This document shows positions 2 through 20,095 of a DNA stretch of 22,854 nucleotides, one piece after another. How positions within the stretch are numbered: position 1 is the stretch's first letter; each line of letters starts with the position of its first letter. The DNA is from a virus, in the IMG/VR virus record IMGVR_UViG_3300025645_000488, positions 1 to 22,854 of that record. The stretch is one strand, 5' to 3'. The position numbers were made by a program, and so were the translations under genes. The notes beneath the pieces were generated by a model, which saw only the letters and a list, made by a program, of their open reading frames with translations, was not told where the DNA came from and ran no database searches.

Positions 2-895
2 AACACTAAGCTACGTGATGCTGTGTCGCAGTACATCCGTAGTGCTAACTTCGCTAAGCTATCTAGTGCAGTACAGTATAAGTATGAGAGTACACTTAAC
101 CGTGTGTGTGCTACCAAGGTACAGAACGGTGCTGAGTTAGGTAACATCAAGCTAAGCGACATCAGGTACAAACATGTGACGTATGCCTACGATAGGTGGA
201 CTGATAACAATGGCCCATCTGCTGCTAACTACATGGCTACATGCCTGAGCATCGTACTTAACACAGCCATACGTCACGAGGCTATCATAGCTAACCCTGT
301 GTCACAGCTACAGCGTAAGTCAGAGAAGCCTCGCAAAGTTAAGTGGTCCAAGGATGACGTTAGGTCTTTCCTTTCTACGGCATACTCTGAGTGGCGCTGG
401 CGTAGCATAGGATTGATACTACACATGGCATACGAGTGGGGTCAACGCATAGGTGACATGCGCCTACTCAAGTGGGAGGACATTGACTTCGATGAGCAAC
501 GTGTTGACATCACACAGTCTAAGCGTGGCGCTGAGGTACACCTACCTATACCAGATGAATTGCTAGCTATGCTTGAGGCACAGCGTGTAGACTTTGGCTT
601 CCAAGATTATGTAGCACCACGGGTTAAGCCTAACCACAGTGGGTACAGCCCTTACACTGCCATTGAGATCCACACTCAGGTCAACAACATCAAAGCTAAG
701 GCTGGCCTTGACCCTAAGCTACAAGCCAGAGACCTACGCCGTACTGCTATCACTGAGATGGCTGAGGCAGGGGTGGATCTTGTAGGTATCATGCAGGTGA
801 GTGGACACCAGAGTCCCAACAGTGTTAAGCCTTACCTGGTTAACACATTCAGTGGTGCATCAGCTGCACTATCAAAGAGAAGGGGAGACGGATGA
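2..895 (+). CDS. int: Tyrosine-family site-specific integrase, 5'-partial
   Basis: Catalyses strand exchange between phage and host attachment sites through a covalent phosphotyrosine. The reading frame is open to the first base of the window, so the true start probably lies upstream; the first in-window start-like codon is GTG at 23, and residue numbers here count from it. Residues about 1-100 fit the SAM-like core-binding domain. The catalytic domain carries R142 (GQRIGDMRLLKW), K167 (TQSKRG), R239 in ARDLRRT, H262 in SGHQSPNS and nucleophile Y271. The usual His before DLR is Arg (R236), a variant also met in other phage integrases. The set looks functional. The stop overlaps the next start (ATGA). 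No attachment site, excisionase or repressor is visible nearby, so a temperate lifestyle is possible but not shown. Confidence 0.93.
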   Translation, partial: NTKLRDAVSQYIRSANFAKLSSAVQYKYESTLNRVCATKVQNGAELGNIKLSDIRYKHVTYAYDRWTDNNGPSAANYMATCLSIVLNTAIRHEAIIANPVSQLQRKSEKPRKVKWSKDDVRSFLSTAYSEWRWRSIGLILHMAYEWGQRIGDMRLLKWEDIDFDEQRVDITQSKRGAEVHLPIPDELLAMLEAQRVDFGFQDYVAPRVKPNHSGYSPYTAIEIHTQVNNIKAKAGLDPKLQARDLRRTAITEMAEAGVDLVGIMQVSGHQSPNSVKPYLVNTFSGASAALSKRRGDG

Positions 896-2563: not shown

Positions 2564-3219
2564 TGTCAATTAAAGCAACGTACATTGACCACATGGGTAA
2601 TGACTTGACTGTAGCTAACGCTGCACGGGTATCCTTTGGTAAGACAAGTGAGATGGAGGACGATCCTTGGGGTCCACCTAAGCTCAAAGCTAAGGATGAT
2701 AAGCTAATCCGTTACCTTGCCAAGCACAAGCACATCAGTCCATTCGGACATTGCTTCGCCAGCTTCCACGTCAAGGCTCCGATCTTTGTAGCCCGACAAC
2801 TCGTGAAGCATAAGTTCTTGAGATGGAATGAGATCAGCCGTAGGTATGTGGATAGTGAGCCTGAGTTCTATGAGCCTTCAGTGTGGCGTGGACGTAGTGC
2901 TGACAAGAAGCAAGGCTCTGATGGTGTCGTAAACATAACCCTTGACCAAGAGGTACAGTGGAGCAGGCAACTGTATACATATAAGACCTTACTTTCTGAG
3001 GGTGTAGCTCCAGAGCAAGCCCGTATGGTGCTGCCACAGTCTACTATGACTGAGTGGTACTGGTCAGGTAGCCTTGATGCCTTCGCTGATATGTGCAACC
3101 TGCGCTGCAAGGATGACACACAGGCAGAGACACGAGAGGTAGCACGACAGATTGACCACAAGATGATTGAGCTATTCCCTGTATCGTGGGATGCATTAAC
3201 GGAGAATGATGATGGCTAA
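2563..3219 (+). CDS. thyX: FAD-dependent thymidylate synthase ThyX
   Basis: Converts dUMP to dTMP using methylene-tetrahydrofolate, FAD and NADPH. 218 residues, normal for the family. The motif HISPFGH (57-63) and the block [18 protein letters not shown] (79-95) identify it. The ThyX signature is R-H-R-x7-S-x-R; here the spacing is kept, with S92 and R94, but the first triplet is K82-H83-K84. Conservative Arg-to-Lys change at these positions occurs, as I recall, in other phage ThyX proteins, so activity is still likely. ATG 2563 overlaps the previous stop and AGAGG lies upstream. With the ribonucleotide reductase and MazG-like genes it forms the dNTP-supply set of this phage. Confidence 0.93.
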
Positions 3220-13851: not shown

Positions 13852-13880
13852 TTGACAGCTATACACCTATATGTTAAACT
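13852..13880 (+). promoter_or_regulatory. Sigma70-type promoter, extended -10
   Basis: TTGACA (13852-13857), 17 bases, then TAAACT (13875-13880), with TG one base before the -10. Same layout as the promoter at 7685-7713: full -35 consensus, optimal spacing, extended -10. It lies in the 64-base gap after phoH and points at the small gene starting at 13909. Confidence 0.65.
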
Positions 13881-13908
13881 CTCCTAGTTAACATTGTTTG
13901 GGAGTGTT

Positions 13909-14118
13909 ATGGTACTTAATATAGAAGAAGAAGCTAAGCGTTTCATTGCACTGAAGAAGAGAGAGTTTGTCACTGAGTTAGATAAGATGTACACTACCAC
14001 ATCTGACTACCTAGTGTATCACTTACACCCTTCTGATGAGAGAGAGTACGCTATAAAGGCTCTACAAGAAGCAGTGCTCTGGTCTAAGAGTTGTTTAGAT
14101 AAACACGGCATACAGTAA
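13909..14118 (+). CDS. Acb2/Tad1-like small helical protein, candidate anti-defence
   Basis: 69 residues from ATG 13909, with GGGAG four bases upstream; a TTG at 13894 in frame is less likely. Two helices are expected: about 5-28 (NIEEEAKRFIALKKREFV) and 42-66. The second, HPSDEREYAIKALQEAVLWS, has the pattern D-x-R-x-x-A-I-x-x-L-x-E-A-x-x-W that marks the C-terminal helical hairpin of Acb2 (anti-CBASS, T4 Vs.4 type) and of Tad1-associated proteins, which bind cyclic nucleotide signals. It is shorter than typical members. Own strong promoter and immediate terminator make it a single-gene unit, as expected for an early counter-defence gene. The family call is from pattern memory and the function is inferred. 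Confidence 0.55.
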   Translation: MVLNIEEEAKRFIALKKREFVTELDKMYTTTSDYLVYHLHPSDEREYAIKALQEAVLWSKSCLDKHGIQ

Positions 14119-14126
14119 AACTAGAA

Positions 14127-14154
14127 AGGGGAGCCTAACAGCTCCCCTCTTTTT
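14127..14154. terminator. Bidirectional intrinsic terminator between convergent blocks
   Basis: AGGGGAGC (14127-14134), loop CTAACA, GCTCCCCT (14141-14148), followed on the plus strand by CTTTTTATTTC. On the minus strand the same hairpin is followed by TTCTAGTTTT, a weaker T-rich run. The stop codon of the minus-strand 1197-residue gene lies in the plus-strand T run (14153-14155), so both blocks end here. Confidence 0.88.
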
Positions 14155-17100
14155 ATTTCTTTTCATCTAGCTTTCTATAGTCTTCTCGAACCTCTACATA
14201 ACCAACAAAGAGTTTTAGCTGGTGATCCTCTAACTCATTTAGATCTTCTTCAATACCAAACTCTTTAGCGTACTGTTTCAACCTAGTCTTATTGGCATAC
14301 TCCCCAGCCCCTAACTTATATAGCATTAAAGTACGAGTGTCTTTAGGATCAAAAGACCTAGAAAGAATATCTTTTACGAGAGCCTTACTCTCTCTTAAGC
14401 GCTGGTATATATAGCTCTTACGCTGCGCTGGTGTACCTGCTTTCCACTTTGTAGACTCTATAAGTGATGCAAACTCATACTCAAGTATAGGCGATATGAT
14501 ACGCTGTACATCGTTACGAGCTTCAGGGATAGACGATCTTATATCAGTCTTCCAGTTAGGTATACCAGCCTCACCAAACGCTTTCTCTGTACTAGACAAC
14601 GCACTATTGAAACGTATACCAAAGACCTTACTTATAGGTACTTGCGCTCTATCTGTAGTGATAGCATTGTATTTCTCACCCGGCTTTGTGTATAGTTCCA
14701 TAGCCTCAAGCAACTCATCCGCATAACGTACAGACTTGTTAACCCACTCAGAGCCTTGCCTACGGTCTGGAGCTATGTATGCATCCCCCTTAACCATAGC
14801 AGCAGTTAAGTTAACAGGATCTAAGAAGCGGGTATAACCTGAGGCGTACATAGACGTAGTGCCTTGGATAACTTTAAGCAGAGCTTCTTTGACCTCAACA
14901 TCTTCTGTAGTCATAGCCTCCACTAGCAAGTCGAAAGAACCCTTGATCGTATCATCAAGCTGACGGGTCATGTTTCCTGGGCCTAGCACAGTCACGATCT
15001 CTCTAAATAGATCTTCAGGTACTGTCCCATCTCTGTGGAAGTGAGCCGCCATACGCCCTATACCCTTGTAGAATATGTAAGGGAAGTCATATAGACGGTT
15101 GCGAATAGACCCGTCTGAGGATCGAGAGTTATACCAAGGCAGACCCTCTTCTAGGTAATCCTTTTCGTAGTTATAGGCTGCGCCCATAAAGGCAAGACCA
15201 ACAGCTGTCTTACTAGCTAGATCTCCTACGTCCCGTGTACCACCCATAAAGAGCCTGTGCGTAAGGCTTATACCTGAGTGGTCCATCATGTGTGCAATGG
15301 TGTTGTTAAAGAACTGCCCGAATGGTATCATAGCTCCAACGAGAGGCAGTCGGCTTACCTCTTCAACCATGCCAGCAATCTTACCTAGCGTTGTGCTGGA
15401 GTCTGCATAGCTCTTAGAGAATACATTACGCAGTGCGTCTTGAGATGCGGCACTTATAACTTCAGCGTAGTCATCCCCCATCATCTTCTTCCACATGTCA
15501 GGGTCTTGTAAAAACTCTTTGTATGACATATTATATTTAATACGCATCTGTTTATCTACAGCATACATAAACTCTTGAGACTTAGTAGCAACATCCTGTA
15601 GCTTAACGCCATAGACAAGCTGGATCTTATCCATAATCTTATCTAGTTTGTTACGGCTGATAGTGTTTACTGCGCCACTACCTAAAGACTCACTAGCTAT
15701 CTCTGAGAACTCTTCTAGTTGAAGCTTACGTGACAACTCCTCTATGTCAACACCACCTGCCATATAGCGCAGCATATCTTTTTGAGCCTGGGGGTTGAAC
15801 GCCAAGATGTCCTGGAAGGCTTCGTAAGTCATGTTAGGGTCTAGTAAGTTACGAGCCTTTTGTTTCTGCAGGGAGAACATAAGCCCTGCTTTCTTAGCGT
15901 AGGCAGCTGCACCTTCTCTGTTAAACATAGCAGCGTTCAGAATAGAAGCGCCACCAAAGAGAGTACCACGAACAATATCAGTAGCACTCTGTAAAGAACT
16001 TGCAGTAGACCAGCCCACTAAGTTAAGCGCAGTAGTACCAGGGTGTGTAACAAGCATACGAATAAGGTTACGCTGCATGTAGTTAGCTGTACCCAGTATT
16101 CCTTCACGTACTTTAGTTGTAACGCCAGGGGTTTCAACCTTGATAAGCTCTTCGATTAGTTCCCCTGCTTCAGCGTCAGGTTTGATCTCACGTATCTTGT
16201 TGAAGACACTAGAAGCATTACGTACAATAGCCATCTTCTTAGCGGCGTCACTGATCTCACTAGCTACCAAGTCTAAGGCTGTACCTGTTATTGTATTACC
16301 GTCTGCGTCCTTTATAGTAGCCTGTTCAAATAGCTTCTTGCCTTTGTAAAGATCTACATTTGCACCTAGTGTGTCATCGAAGATGTCTGACAACTGAGCC
16401 TTTACGTTATCAGGCATGGCTACCATAAGATCACTCATCCAGTTCAGGAAGCCATCTTGAGGGTCACGCTTAGTCCAGTACTTGATACCGTTGTCAGCTA
16501 GGCTAGTAGATATACCCTTAAAGAAAGCATCTTGCCACACTAAGTCATCAGGAATGTAATCGCCTTGTTCTACTTCACGTAGTGGTACACCTCGTGCAGC
16601 TTTATCCTTTAGTGTCTCCATCATGTCACGGAAACCAGTTAAGCTAGCCTCAAAGCCATCCATGTCTAAATCTTTTAAGGTTTGTGCTGGCTCACCTGCT
16701 ATCTTACGAGCATTAGCTAGGTGTTCCTGTGCTTGATAGAACCGCATAGCACCCAAAGATGATAGGTCAGCTTCATCCAAGTTAAAGCCACGTGCAAAAG
16801 AGTAGCCTACACCCATACCTATAGCACCACCAGCGGCAGCGAAGCCACCTTGCATCATGTTGTAACCGTCTTGCAGGTCTACGTCATCCATAATGTTCTG
16901 ATAGATAGCGTCCATACCAACACCAGCTACAGTTTCCGTAAGCCCTACACCAATAGCTTCTCTACGTGCTGCCTGTTTAGTAGCCGCTAGGAAAGTCTGT
17001 TGCTCTGCCGTTTGTGCACCCGCTTTAAGAGATGCACTAGCCAGAAGCTTGTTTGTTTGTATACGTTCTTGTTGTTGTACAGCCAGACGTGCTCCCTCTG

Positions 17101-17746
17101 AAGCGCCTTTCTTTTTAACTATATCTAAAGCAGTGGATCGTGCTGCTTGTTTAGCTACTAGTCCCGCTGCTTTACTAGCCCCATAACCTGCAAACCTACC
17201 TGCGGCTAGTCCTATTAACCACATAGGGTCAACAATCAAAGCACGAGCGTAATCACCTACAGCGTCAATCTTCTCCATAGATGAAGTACCCTTAGAGAAA
17301 GCACCCTTCATAGAGTCAAAGGTGTCGTAGGCTGAGGCTGCTTGTGTCATAAGCCGGGTACGTTCTGCTTTATCTTTTGTACCTTTAATCTTATTCAGGT
17401 AGGCAAGCTCCTCAAAGGTAGTTACAGACTGCCCAGCGCCAAACTTACGCATGTGGTTAACATAAGAATCAACTACTTTCTGCCTGCCATGTACGCCTTC
17501 AGTCATACCAAAGTGATTCTCCATATAAGGAGCAAGCCTAGCATATACGTCATCCCTAGTTAGATCACGCACACCTTCAGGGTCAGCACCCGGCTCTAAC
17601 ATAGTGTCAGTCTGGTTGTCTACTCTACCGTTTACATTAGCAGCCATAGCCTTACTGAAAAGACTTTGAGCATTATCTTCTTCTTCTTCAGGCTTAACCT
17701 CTACGTTATTAGCTAAAGCCTCATTGAACAGAGCAGAACTATCCAT
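14153..17746 (-). CDS. Large internal virion protein, T7 gp16-like in place and size
   Basis: 1197 residues; last gene of the minus-strand structural block. Probably an ejection protein packed in the capsid core and injected to help DNA cross the host envelope. Evidence is position, size (T7 gp16 is about 1300) and composition: long helical Ala/Lys-rich stretches (about 190-260) plus hydrophobic or glycine-rich segments near 172-190, 300-320 (GFAAAGGAIGMGVGYSF) and in the second half (TALNLVGWSTASSLQSA; LPLVGAMIPFGQFF) that could span membrane. No transglycosylase motif is seen, unlike T7 gp16; that activity is on a separate gene. The N-terminus has two copies of an LF-x2-A-x-A-x-NV motif. 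Starts directly after the stop of the 782-residue gene. Confidence 0.7.
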   Translation of the reverse strand: MDSSALFNEALANNVEVKPEEEEDNAQSLFSKAMAANVNGRVDNQTDTMLEPGADPEGVRDLTRDDVYARLAPYMENHFGMTEGVHGRQKVVDSYVNHMRKFGAGQSVTTFEELAYLNKIKGTKDKAERTRLMTQAASAYDTFDSMKGAFSKGTSSMEKIDAVGDYARALIVDPMWLIGLAAGRFAGYGASKAAGLVAKQAARSTALDIVKKKGASEGARLAVQQQERIQTNKLLASASLKAGAQTAEQQTFLAATKQAARREAIGVGLTETVAGVGMDAIYQNIMDDVDLQDGYNMMQGGFAAAGGAIGMGVGYSFARGFNLDEADLSSLGAMRFYQAQEHLANARKIAGEPAQTLKDLDMDGFEASLTGFRDMMETLKDKAARGVPLREVEQGDYIPDDLVWQDAFFKGISTSLADNGIKYWTKRDPQDGFLNWMSDLMVAMPDNVKAQLSDIFDDTLGANVDLYKGKKLFEQATIKDADGNTITGTALDLVASEISDAAKKMAIVRNASSVFNKIREIKPDAEAGELIEELIKVETPGVTTKVREGILGTANYMQRNLIRMLVTHPGTTALNLVGWSTASSLQSATDIVRGTLFGGASILNAAMFNREGAAAYAKKAGLMFSLQKQKARNLLDPNMTYEAFQDILAFNPQAQKDMLRYMAGGVDIEELSRKLQLEEFSEIASESLGSGAVNTISRNKLDKIMDKIQLVYGVKLQDVATKSQEFMYAVDKQMRIKYNMSYKEFLQDPDMWKKMMGDDYAEVISAASQDALRNVFSKSYADSSTTLGKIAGMVEEVSRLPLVGAMIPFGQFFNNTIAHMMDHSGISLTHRLFMGGTRDVGDLASKTAVGLAFMGAAYNYEKDYLEEGLPWYNSRSSDGSIRNRLYDFPYIFYKGIGRMAAHFHRDGTVPEDLFREIVTVLGPGNMTRQLDDTIKGSFDLLVEAMTTEDVEVKEALLKVIQGTTSMYASGYTRFLDPVNLTAAMVKGDAYIAPDRRQGSEWVNKSVRYADELLEAMELYTKPGEKYNAITTDRAQVPISKVFGIRFNSALSSTEKAFGEAGIPNWKTDIRSSIPEARNDVQRIISPILEYEFASLIESTKWKAGTPAQRKSYIYQRLRESKALVKDILSRSFDPKDTRTLMLYKLGAGEYANKTRLKQYAKEFGIEEDLNELEDHQLKLFVGYVEVREDYRKLDEKK

Positions 17747-20095
17747 TTACAGACCCATTTCTTTTTGTACTATAACGCTGCCATATTTCTTGACTAGCAT
17801 ATCCAACAAACTTGAGTCACCACTTAGCTCATTAGCTTTCTGTGCTCTCTTAAGTCTAGCCTTATCACTTGCTGTCATACCTTTAGGCTTAAGGGGTTTC
17901 TTAGGTCTGGTCACTAAAGGCTCAGGCTCTACAGTTTTCTCTACCTCAGCTTCTTTACGCAGGTCAGAGATCTTATCCTTAAGAGCTTGTAAAGCTACAA
18001 CCCTATTTCTCTGTCCTTCATTCTTCATAATACGCTCCTCTAAGGTCTCCTCAAAGAGGGCTGCTATAGAGGCATTTATTTTATCTTGAGTGTCAAACAG
18101 AGACTGGTGAATTCTCTCAGGTAGCTCAGTCAAGAAACGTAATGATTTTGAGATAGACTCTGTTGTGGCGTTCTCTAAGTTATCGGGTACATCTCCAGGG
18201 AACTCGGGTTTAAACTCTTCGCCTGATAGCTTCGCCCTAGCCGCTGCAATTATTTCAGCGTTAGTCAATGCTACTCCGTTTACCCCCCCTAGTCTTTGTG
18301 ACTCTTCACCTATTCCTACCATCTCCATAAGTGAAACAATGGGATTTTCTGGACCCGTAAACCAGTCCAAGAAACCAGCTTTAACCTCCTCCTCAACTTC
18401 ATCAGGCACTACCTCATCAGTGTTGAGTTGCATGTATTCCTTCCAACCCATAGCGGCAATGTCTGCTGCTCTCTCAGAGTAGAGGTCTGCGTTCTCTTGT
18501 AGTTGACGGGACCATGCTTCAGAGGAATCCCCTTTAGAAGATCCAAACAGACCCCTACTAAAGTCTATAACTGAAGACATAGCATTTGATAGACCAGATT
18601 TAGCTACGTCCATATAGGTATAGCCTTTAGTATTTACGTAGTCACTAGTCCTGCTTAAGAAGTCAGTTACTTTCTCTCCTCTTATTACGGCATCGGACAA
18701 CTCATCAGCGTCTGCAGGCAGTAGGTATGAGCTATCCTTCCAGCTATCGTCAGATGGAATTGTGTCCATGCCCACTAGGCCTTGGTCAACAGCAGGAGTC
18801 ATCAGTGGGGAAATCCACTTCTGGAACCTAGCTTCCATAGCACTGCGGTCAGGTACTGTATTAACTGAGGTATCTGTTTCACTTGAAACTGCTTCTACTT
18901 TGGGTGCTTTATAGGTATCAATAAAGCCCTGCTTGACTTCTACTGTAGTACCATCAACTACAATAGTATCACCTACTTTTATATCACCCTTATTTACAGC
19001 AGCTTGTATTTGATCCTGAGTATAGGTAGCTGCCTTCTTTGGTACTGGAGGTTCACCCGCTGGAGTTTCACCTGCTGGAGTTTCACCTGCTGGAGTTTCA
19101 CCTGCTGGAGTTTCACCTGCTGGAGGTTGACCACTTTCTGCTGTCGTAGGGATATCTTCGCCTGCTGTTAGTGCGCTGTAGGTAGTCCTGAAATAGTCAC
19201 CCAACAAGAAGTTATTGCTTACTGAACCCAATCTATTAGCTTCTATACCTTGTAAGTAGGTAAGGAAAGCACCACCTTCATACTCAGGGTTACTGATATA
19301 CCTAGCCATAGCTTCGCCTTCGTTAGTCTTTGCTATTGTTACTAGTTCTTTAAGTTTATCATGTTTTGCTGTTAAGGTCTGCCGTGCCTCAGCACTAAGG
19401 CTCGTAGAAGCCAAAGCTGTTGAAAGCTCATCCATCTGGCGGCTAATACTAGCGTTAAATTGTTCTCCTACAGTCGCCCTTACAATATTTAATTCACTAG
19501 GGCTAATAGGCTTAGGTGGTAGCTTAATTCCCAGCGGCTTACCTGCCTTAGGTCCAGAGCTAGCCGCAATACGAATTAAGTCTTGTCCACTATACCCACC
19601 GTAATAGTCAGCGTTAATAACTTCGTCTTCCAGAGCACGAGCATCTAAGCCTAGCATAGCACCCAACATACCAGTCTTACGTTTCACTGGGTCTGACTCA
19701 GACTTGTAAAGACCATACGCACGATTAATAACAGTCTCTAAGTCTTCCTCTGGGTTACTATTTACAAAGTCTACGGCAGATGTTTCAAGCTCTTTGATGT
19801 CGGCTGGTGTTAAGTCAGTACGCTTAAGTACCTGCTCTGCAAAGTCATACATACCACGAACACCACTCTTAGTTGTGATACCCGTTACAAACTCCTTAGA
19901 AAAACCAAAGTTCTGAAGCCTATTAGCAACTGAAAGTGCATCGTTTGCTTTACTTTCAATGTCTACTACAGCCTTTGTACCGTAGGTCTGCAAGTAGTCC
20001 TTACGTTTCTCAGCTTTCGCTCTGTAGTACTCACGGTCTTTTTCTATTAGTTCCGACAAGGTAGTGCCGAAGCCTGCCATAAATCCTGCTGCCAT
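17747..20095 (-). CDS. Internal virion protein, T7 gp15-like in place and size, with repeat linker
   Basis: 782 residues (T7 gp15 is 747). The N-terminal 320 residues are helical and start MAAGFMAGFGTTLSELIEKD, a Gly/Ala opening followed by a charged helix. Residues about 322-351 are a Pro-Ala-Gly-Glu-Thr repeat, then a short beta-type unit (GDIKVGDTIVVDGTTVEVK, about 372-390), then an acidic helical half ending in a Lys/Pro-rich linker (RPKKPLKPKGM) and a short terminal helix. No enzymatic motif is visible. Lies between the 187-residue and the 1197-residue genes, with four bases before and none after. An ejection-apparatus role is inferred from gene order only. Confidence 0.65.
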   Translation of the reverse strand: MAAGFMAGFGTTLSELIEKDREYYRAKAEKRKDYLQTYGTKAVVDIESKANDALSVANRLQNFGFSKEFVTGITTKSGVRGMYDFAEQVLKRTDLTPADIKELETSAVDFVNSNPEEDLETVINRAYGLYKSESDPVKRKTGMLGAMLGLDARALEDEVINADYYGGYSGQDLIRIAASSGPKAGKPLGIKLPPKPISPSELNIVRATVGEQFNASISRQMDELSTALASTSLSAEARQTLTAKHDKLKELVTIAKTNEGEAMARYISNPEYEGGAFLTYLQGIEANRLGSVSNNFLLGDYFRTTYSALTAGEDIPTTAESGQPPAGETPAGETPAGETPAGETPAGEPPVPKKAATYTQDQIQAAVNKGDIKVGDTIVVDGTTVEVKQGFIDTYKAPKVEAVSSETDTSVNTVPDRSAMEARFQKWISPLMTPAVDQGLVGMDTIPSDDSWKDSSYLLPADADELSDAVIRGEKVTDFLSRTSDYVNTKGYTYMDVAKSGLSNAMSSVIDFSRGLFGSSKGDSSEAWSRQLQENADLYSERAADIAAMGWKEYMQLNTDEVVPDEVEEEVKAGFLDWFTGPENPIVSLMEMVGIGEESQRLGGVNGVALTNAEIIAAARAKLSGEEFKPEFPGDVPDNLENATTESISKSLRFLTELPERIHQSLFDTQDKINASIAALFEETLEERIMKNEGQRNRVVALQALKDKISDLRKEAEVEKTVEPEPLVTRPKKPLKPKGMTASDKARLKRAQKANELSGDSSLLDMLVKKYGSVIVQKEMGL
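19045..19131 (-). repeat. 15-base tandem repeat coding for Pro-Ala-Gly-Glu-Thr
   Basis: Unit CTGGAGTTTCACCTG on the plus strand. Four identical copies (19060-19119), one diverged copy before (19045-19059, two changes) and a partial diverged copy after. On the coding strand it gives five or so PAGET units inside the 782-residue virion protein. Identical units suggest recent expansion by slippage; copy-number change in whole units keeps the reading frame. Confidence 0.95.

Follow-up and report, generated by a model that had tools for sequence, protein, structure and literature searches.

A small two-helix protein of marine phages as a probable divergent member of the Acb2/Tad1 hairpin superfamily and a candidate nucleotide-signal sponge

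Where two convergent gene blocks meet in a marine phage genome, a short gene raises the question of whether its product, P0001, is a counter-defence protein of the Acb2/Tad1 type, as an initial annotation made from the sequence of the window (the whole analysed stretch of 22,854 nucleotides) had proposed. That annotation described a 69-residue single-gene unit with its own promoter and a terminator at the junction of the blocks, and all of these elements are present (Table 1). The open reading frame encodes exactly 69 amino acids, and we collected the gene from about 48 marine phage loci, representing 31 distinct protein sequences. Its dN/dS was 0.12 to 0.23 against close relatives, compared to 0.07 to 0.08 for phoH in the same pairs; an arms-race signature, sought through dN/dS, was not seen, selection on the hairpin gene being relaxed but purifying. 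Together with the occurrence at 48 loci, these ratios establish the frame as a real gene.

The promoter has a TG ahead of its -10 element, and its exact pattern occurs a single time in the window and never in shuffled sequences (0). Promoter-like sites as such numbered 30 between positions 3000 and 22854, where 29.2 were expected, so that a consensus match alone is not special. We nevertheless consider this promoter probably real because of its conserved footprint: across six aligned sequences (the relatives compared being L003, L006, L008, L014, and L015), with protein identities as low as 48%, TTGACA never varies and the -10 core is retained, whereas the spacer differs. Sister clades lack the promoter, and there the gene overlaps or directly adjoins the one upstream of it. 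The GGGAG ahead of the start codon is a plausible Shine-Dalgarno sequence, close relatives carrying either GGGAG or GGGGCG at this position. The terminator hairpin sits at the junction of the plus- and minus-strand blocks, and a similar G/C hairpin lies 3' of the gene in the relatives inspected. In the window's lineage, transcription would start at the gene's own promoter and end at this two-way terminator.

Table 1. Features of the P0001 locus, in window coordinates.
Feature	Position	Strand	Basis
Probable sigma-70-type promoter, TTGACA-17-TAAACT with extended -10, TATGTTAAACT	13852..13880	+	-35 constant and -10 core retained across relatives
Probable ribosome-binding site, GGGAG, 4 nt 5' of ATG	13900..13904	+	Direct sequence reading
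Gene of P0001, very probably a divergent Acb2/Tad1-type two-helix hairpin	13909..14118	+	Sequence and structure comparisons
Helix 1, residues 5-38, continuous	13921..14022	+	AlphaFold models
Helix 2, residues 43-66, with conserved A-x3-L-x-E-A-x2-W-[AS]	14035..14106	+	AlphaFold, gap-free profile alignment, column counts
H66-G67-I68, near-invariant clade-specific tail	14104..14112	+	31 sequences: H 30, G 31, I 29
Bidirectional intrinsic terminator between the convergent blocks	14125..14150		Hairpin scored on both strands

The window belongs to a podophage-like marine genome and changes coding strand along its length; its closest named relatives are the Roseobacter phages CRP-13 and CRP-207. Its plus-strand block encodes an integrase fragment, ThyX, a DnaB-type helicase, a family A DNA polymerase, endonuclease I, a MazG-like pyrophosphohydrolase, a ribonucleotide reductase of the B12-dependent type, glutaredoxin, endonuclease VII, and PhoH, and closes with the P0001 gene, which is flanked by phoH and, on the minus strand, by a convergent late block that consists of genes for large proteins and an endolysin-like gene. 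No recognised anti-defence gene adjoins it, the neighbors being DNA-metabolism and late genes. The integrase fragment (positions 2-895, plus strand; phrog_1, 5e-38) lies at the left edge of the podophage-like replication module. On the minus strand, the proteins of 1197 aa (14153-17746) and 782 aa (17747-20095), the former with homologues in roseophages, had no PHROGs match at 0.001 and are possibly virion proteins.

At the loci long enough to judge, the hairpin gene ends the plus-strand block and is followed by a G/C hairpin and then by a convergent large gene; the preceding gene varies (phoH or endonuclease VII), and the end-of-block position stays unchanged. Other roseophages fill this slot with unrelated genes, namely, in CRP-13, one for a protein of 83 aa that weakly matches an AT-hook, a 50-aa protein in CRP-6, a DUF3310 protein in ICBM2, and an endonuclease plus a 62-aa protein in P12053L. 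CRP-207 does carry the hairpin gene, yet at 35% identity to that of the window, as opposed to 95% for phoH. At another locus (L001, 4001-7793), an identical copy of the hairpin gene is found next to a convergent neighbor whose identity to the 1197-aa protein of the window is only 49%, as recombination near the terminator would leave it. The unrelated slot genes, the identity contrast with CRP-207, and the neighbor mismatch in L001 all argue that the slot recombines, and yet, judging from the collected loci, the hairpin gene family keeps it across many phages. The proposal of a spot suited to gene exchange is thus borne out by the different small genes of other phages but needs qualification, since the family holds its place across many contigs under purifying selection. 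Relatives in bacterial genomes were not found with the patterns used, which gives no link to a host or prophage.

Does P0001 belong to the Acb2/Tad1 family? In Pfam, its sole match was Acb2_Tad1_hairpin (PF24729), at 13.4 bits against a gathering cut-off of 27, a shortfall that bars the claim by Pfam's threshold only. Three relatives gave 17.2, 16.7, and 13.7 bits, with the Acb2/Tad1 hairpin ranked first and the best score still below 27; L011 and L014 had no Pfam match to this hairpin. In PHROGs, P0001 matched phrog_1454 only (0.0091), and its orthologue L016 did so at 7.6e-6. Controls identify phrog_1454 as the same family as PF24729: Remus gp51, Bing gp31, Jasmine gp9, PBL1c gp73, and JoyLin gp61, the last annotated as a "cyclic nucleotide sequestering protein," match both strongly, and T4 Vs.4 matches PF24729 at 7e-20 and phrog_1454 weakly at 7e-4. 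PADLOC yielded no match, NCBIfam only Moor_selen_rel (E 0.026, far under its cut-off), and a single-sequence PDB search with P0001 no meaningful match.

Profile comparisons carried further. Aligned by hhalign with reference hairpin proteins, the clade gave 96% probability and an E-value of 3.5e-9 over 48 ungapped columns; as such E-values refer to a single comparison, shuffles are the better guide, and here the score of about 50 compared to a best of 17 in 200 column shuffles and of 21 in 200 shuffles that left the hydrophobic pattern intact. With a second set of family members, the values were 94% and 1.5e-7, whereas Vs.4 on its own gave a weak match (17%), as one sequence provides little information for a profile. 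With an HMM built from the canonical family, several clade members (L015, L146, L016, and others) scored 25.4 to 18.5 bits, higher than Vs.4 itself (17.7), and P0001 scored 9.3, lower than Vs.4. Against the PDB, the best match of the clade profile was the C-terminal hairpin of Tad1 (8kbb, 7uav), with an E-value of only 0.37. Membership is thus well supported for the clade and, by way of its orthologues, for P0001, whose direct single-protein HMM evidence is weak.

AlphaFold (AF2) predicts P0001 to be an antiparallel two-helix hairpin, with a pLDDT of 92.7. Foldseek searches of viral structures returned one close 68-aa match, after which most of the named top matches were Acb2/Tad1 hairpin proteins, at E-values of at least 0.07. 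The PDB returned generic hairpins, with Vs.4 at rank 43 and an E-value of 7; since a clear family member used as a positive control did no better, we did not count the missing PDB match against membership. Two-helix hairpins being common, the generic PDB matches and the weak single-sequence scores would also suit an unrelated hairpin whose likeness to Acb2 arose by chance or by convergence. We regard this as highly improbable, given a score far above shuffles that preserve the hydrophobic pattern, the agreement of independent libraries (Pfam and PHROGs), and the convergence of the viral fold search on the Acb2/Tad1 hairpin family. Sequence and structure comparisons, with their controls, thus uphold the proposed homology, and P0001 is very probably a divergent member of the Acb2/Tad1 hairpin superfamily.

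Which parts of an Acb2 protein, then, has the clade kept? The second-helix motif singled out in the initial annotation is indeed present (D43-x-R45-x-x-A48-I49-x-x-L52-x-E54-A55-V56-x-W58-S59), and its likeness to the R/A/L/A/W pattern of Acb2 holds as hairpin homology, except that R45 lies two residues away from the family arginine column, which is D43 in the window. In T4 Vs.4, the hexamer is held by L29, A66, A73, and A77, with F33, and cGAMP is contacted by Y8, H11, K23, R79, and F82 (PMC10097602). Helix 2 aligns without gaps, so that the residue mapping is unambiguous there; the mapping of helix 1, made by way of the canonical family (Vs.4 8-31 onto model 11-34), is less certain. Among the 31 distinct sequences, the column of L29 holds L in 27 and T in 4, including the window, and that of F33 holds I in 27 and L in 4. 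The alanine columns read A 26, S 3, and V 2 at A66; A 21, V 9, and T 1 at A73; and A 25, S 4, and C 2 at A77, hence a small residue in 31/31, and W76 is invariant. By this alignment the hexamer-interface positions are kept, and P0001 is likely to form an oligomer resembling the Vs.4 hexamer.

The ligand positions look different. In the models, the N terminus of the canonical protein consists of a short helix and a loop bearing F9, Y11, and H12, where P0001 forms a straight helix, and Y8 and H11 of Vs.4 have no counterpart in the clade. The K23 column holds nine different residues (D in the window), the R79 column L in 13 sequences, R in 12, S in 3 (the window among them), H in 2, and W in 1, and the F82 column D, E, A, S, or N but never an aromatic residue (again D in the window). 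As aligned, the known cGAMP contacts of Vs.4 are therefore absent or not conserved. In the arginine column of the family's S/G-R-E-K motif, we counted E 18, R 4, D 4, G 3, and K 2; L133 and L137 retain the arginine as C-R-E-K. This conserved second-helix arginine (in GREKS) is R67 of PaMx33, which has a trinucleotide role. Vs.4 itself has D61 in this column, so loss of the arginine alone does not exclude dinucleotide binding. Meanwhile, F12, F20, and the H-G-I tail are near-invariant and specific to the clade, which suggests that it has a function of its own.

These substitutions bear directly on the idea of a conventional Acb2 that sequesters CBASS cyclic di- and trinucleotides via the known Vs.4 and PaMx33 pockets. 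Family membership, the kept hexamer-interface positions, and the R-E-K arginine of L133 and L137 would all fit, but with the cyclic dinucleotide contacts absent, the N-terminal loop replaced by helix, and the conserved family arginine changed to D43 in the window, we consider it improbable. The anti-CBASS or anti-Thoeris role is not supported in the form first put forward, since the cGAMP-binding residues of Vs.4 are not kept.

To our knowledge, sequestration of nucleotide signals is the only job of the Acb2/Tad1 hairpin superfamily that has been tested. Because of this, and because such a role would suit an accessory gene located in a variable slot, our preferred reading, to which we assign a probability of roughly 0.45, is that P0001 is a sponge by which the phage counters defence, sequestering a host nucleotide signal in a pocket that is remodelled relative to those of Acb2 and Tad1 and may use F12, F20, and the H-G-I tail. 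A bolder version, in which this marine-phage branch dropped the known pocket and evolved a new one from these residues for a marine Rhodobacteraceae defence signal outside the known Acb2/Tad1 ligands, seems to us unlikely. The loss of ligand residues makes it nearly as likely as the remodelled sponge, and thus a serious if tentative possibility, that the fold has instead been repurposed as an oligomeric scaffold or adaptor for a phage or host protein or nucleic acid, for instance in DNA metabolism or late switching. Such a scaffold would explain why ligand positions are lost while oligomer positions stay, and why the gene keeps a single slot, closing the DNA-metabolism block, under purifying selection; moreover, the Acb2_Tad1 hairpin is also found fused to other domains, where it serves as an added module (as with the RyR domain below) and need not be the ligand-binding part. 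It is harder to square with the close roseophages CRP-13, CRP-6, and ICBM2, which lack the hairpin gene and whose unrelated small slot genes make it look dispensable and accessory-like, and with a divergence from CRP-207 much faster than that of phoH.

One such fusion is SUFG_00048 of Sulfitobacter phage phiCB2047-B (L040:1575-2141), a 188-aa protein in which an RyR domain (40.5 bits) is joined to an Acb2/Tad1 hairpin at the C terminus (33.4 bits); each exceeds its Pfam cut-off, and homologues are found in L152 and L153. A 2026 preprint describes phage RyR-domain proteins that degrade ADPR-based immune signals and, in the part of its text searched, makes no mention of Acb2 or hairpins (PMC13232231). 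A fusion that would both degrade and sequester is a lead.

More generally, recognition of Acb2-type sponges relies mainly on the hairpin, which in the present clade is conserved without the known pocket. Annotation as "cyclic nucleotide sequestering" by homology alone may therefore be wrong, or may hide sponges for new ligands. As its members range from R-bearing (L137) to D-bearing (the window), the clade could serve as a natural series for testing which ligands the different parts of the scaffold bind. In a separate instance of labeling, Paenibacillus phage PBL1c gp73 (L047:532-735) is an unambiguous Acb2/Tad1 hairpin at 88 bits, and in several Paenibacillus phage records the hairpin protein is called "phosphomannomutase" or "putative phosphomannomutase," probably an error passed along.

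Compared with known systems, P0001 shares hairpin length, register, and the A-L-E-W pattern with gp73 of PBL1c (Paenibacillus), gp51 of Remus (Gordonia), and gp9 of Jasmine (Arthrobacter). The small hairpin proteins of phrog_1454/PF24729 keep F-x-Y-H-x-P-K, R26, and S-R-E-K-S-x-A-x-T (A5 set), in contrast to the window clade with its F12, F20, and H-G-I. With T4 Vs.4 (Acb2, PDB 7uq2), the clade has the second-helix pattern and the hexamer-interface positions in common, but not the ligand residues; Vs.4 is longer (88 aa), with the N-terminal Y8/H11 loop and a longer loop between the helices. The C-terminal hairpin of Tad1 (8kbb, 7uav) shares C-R-E...A-x-x-K-L-x-E...M-W with the clade profile. 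Tad1 additionally carries an N-terminal beta-sheet domain (PMC12043709), which is missing from the 69-aa, all-helical P0001. Acb2 homolog 43 (PDB 9ptq), a short (76 aa) protein of the hairpin type with a solved structure and six chains in the entry, keeps E-G-R-E-K-S and T-K-L-E-E-A, which the window clade mostly does not. Direct orthologues occur in Roseobacter phages, namely CRP-207 gp38, CRP-2 gp43, and CRP-603 gp43, which are annotated as hypothetical proteins only; 30 to 35% identical to P0001, they occupy the same slot, yet they overlap the upstream gene and have no promoter of their own.
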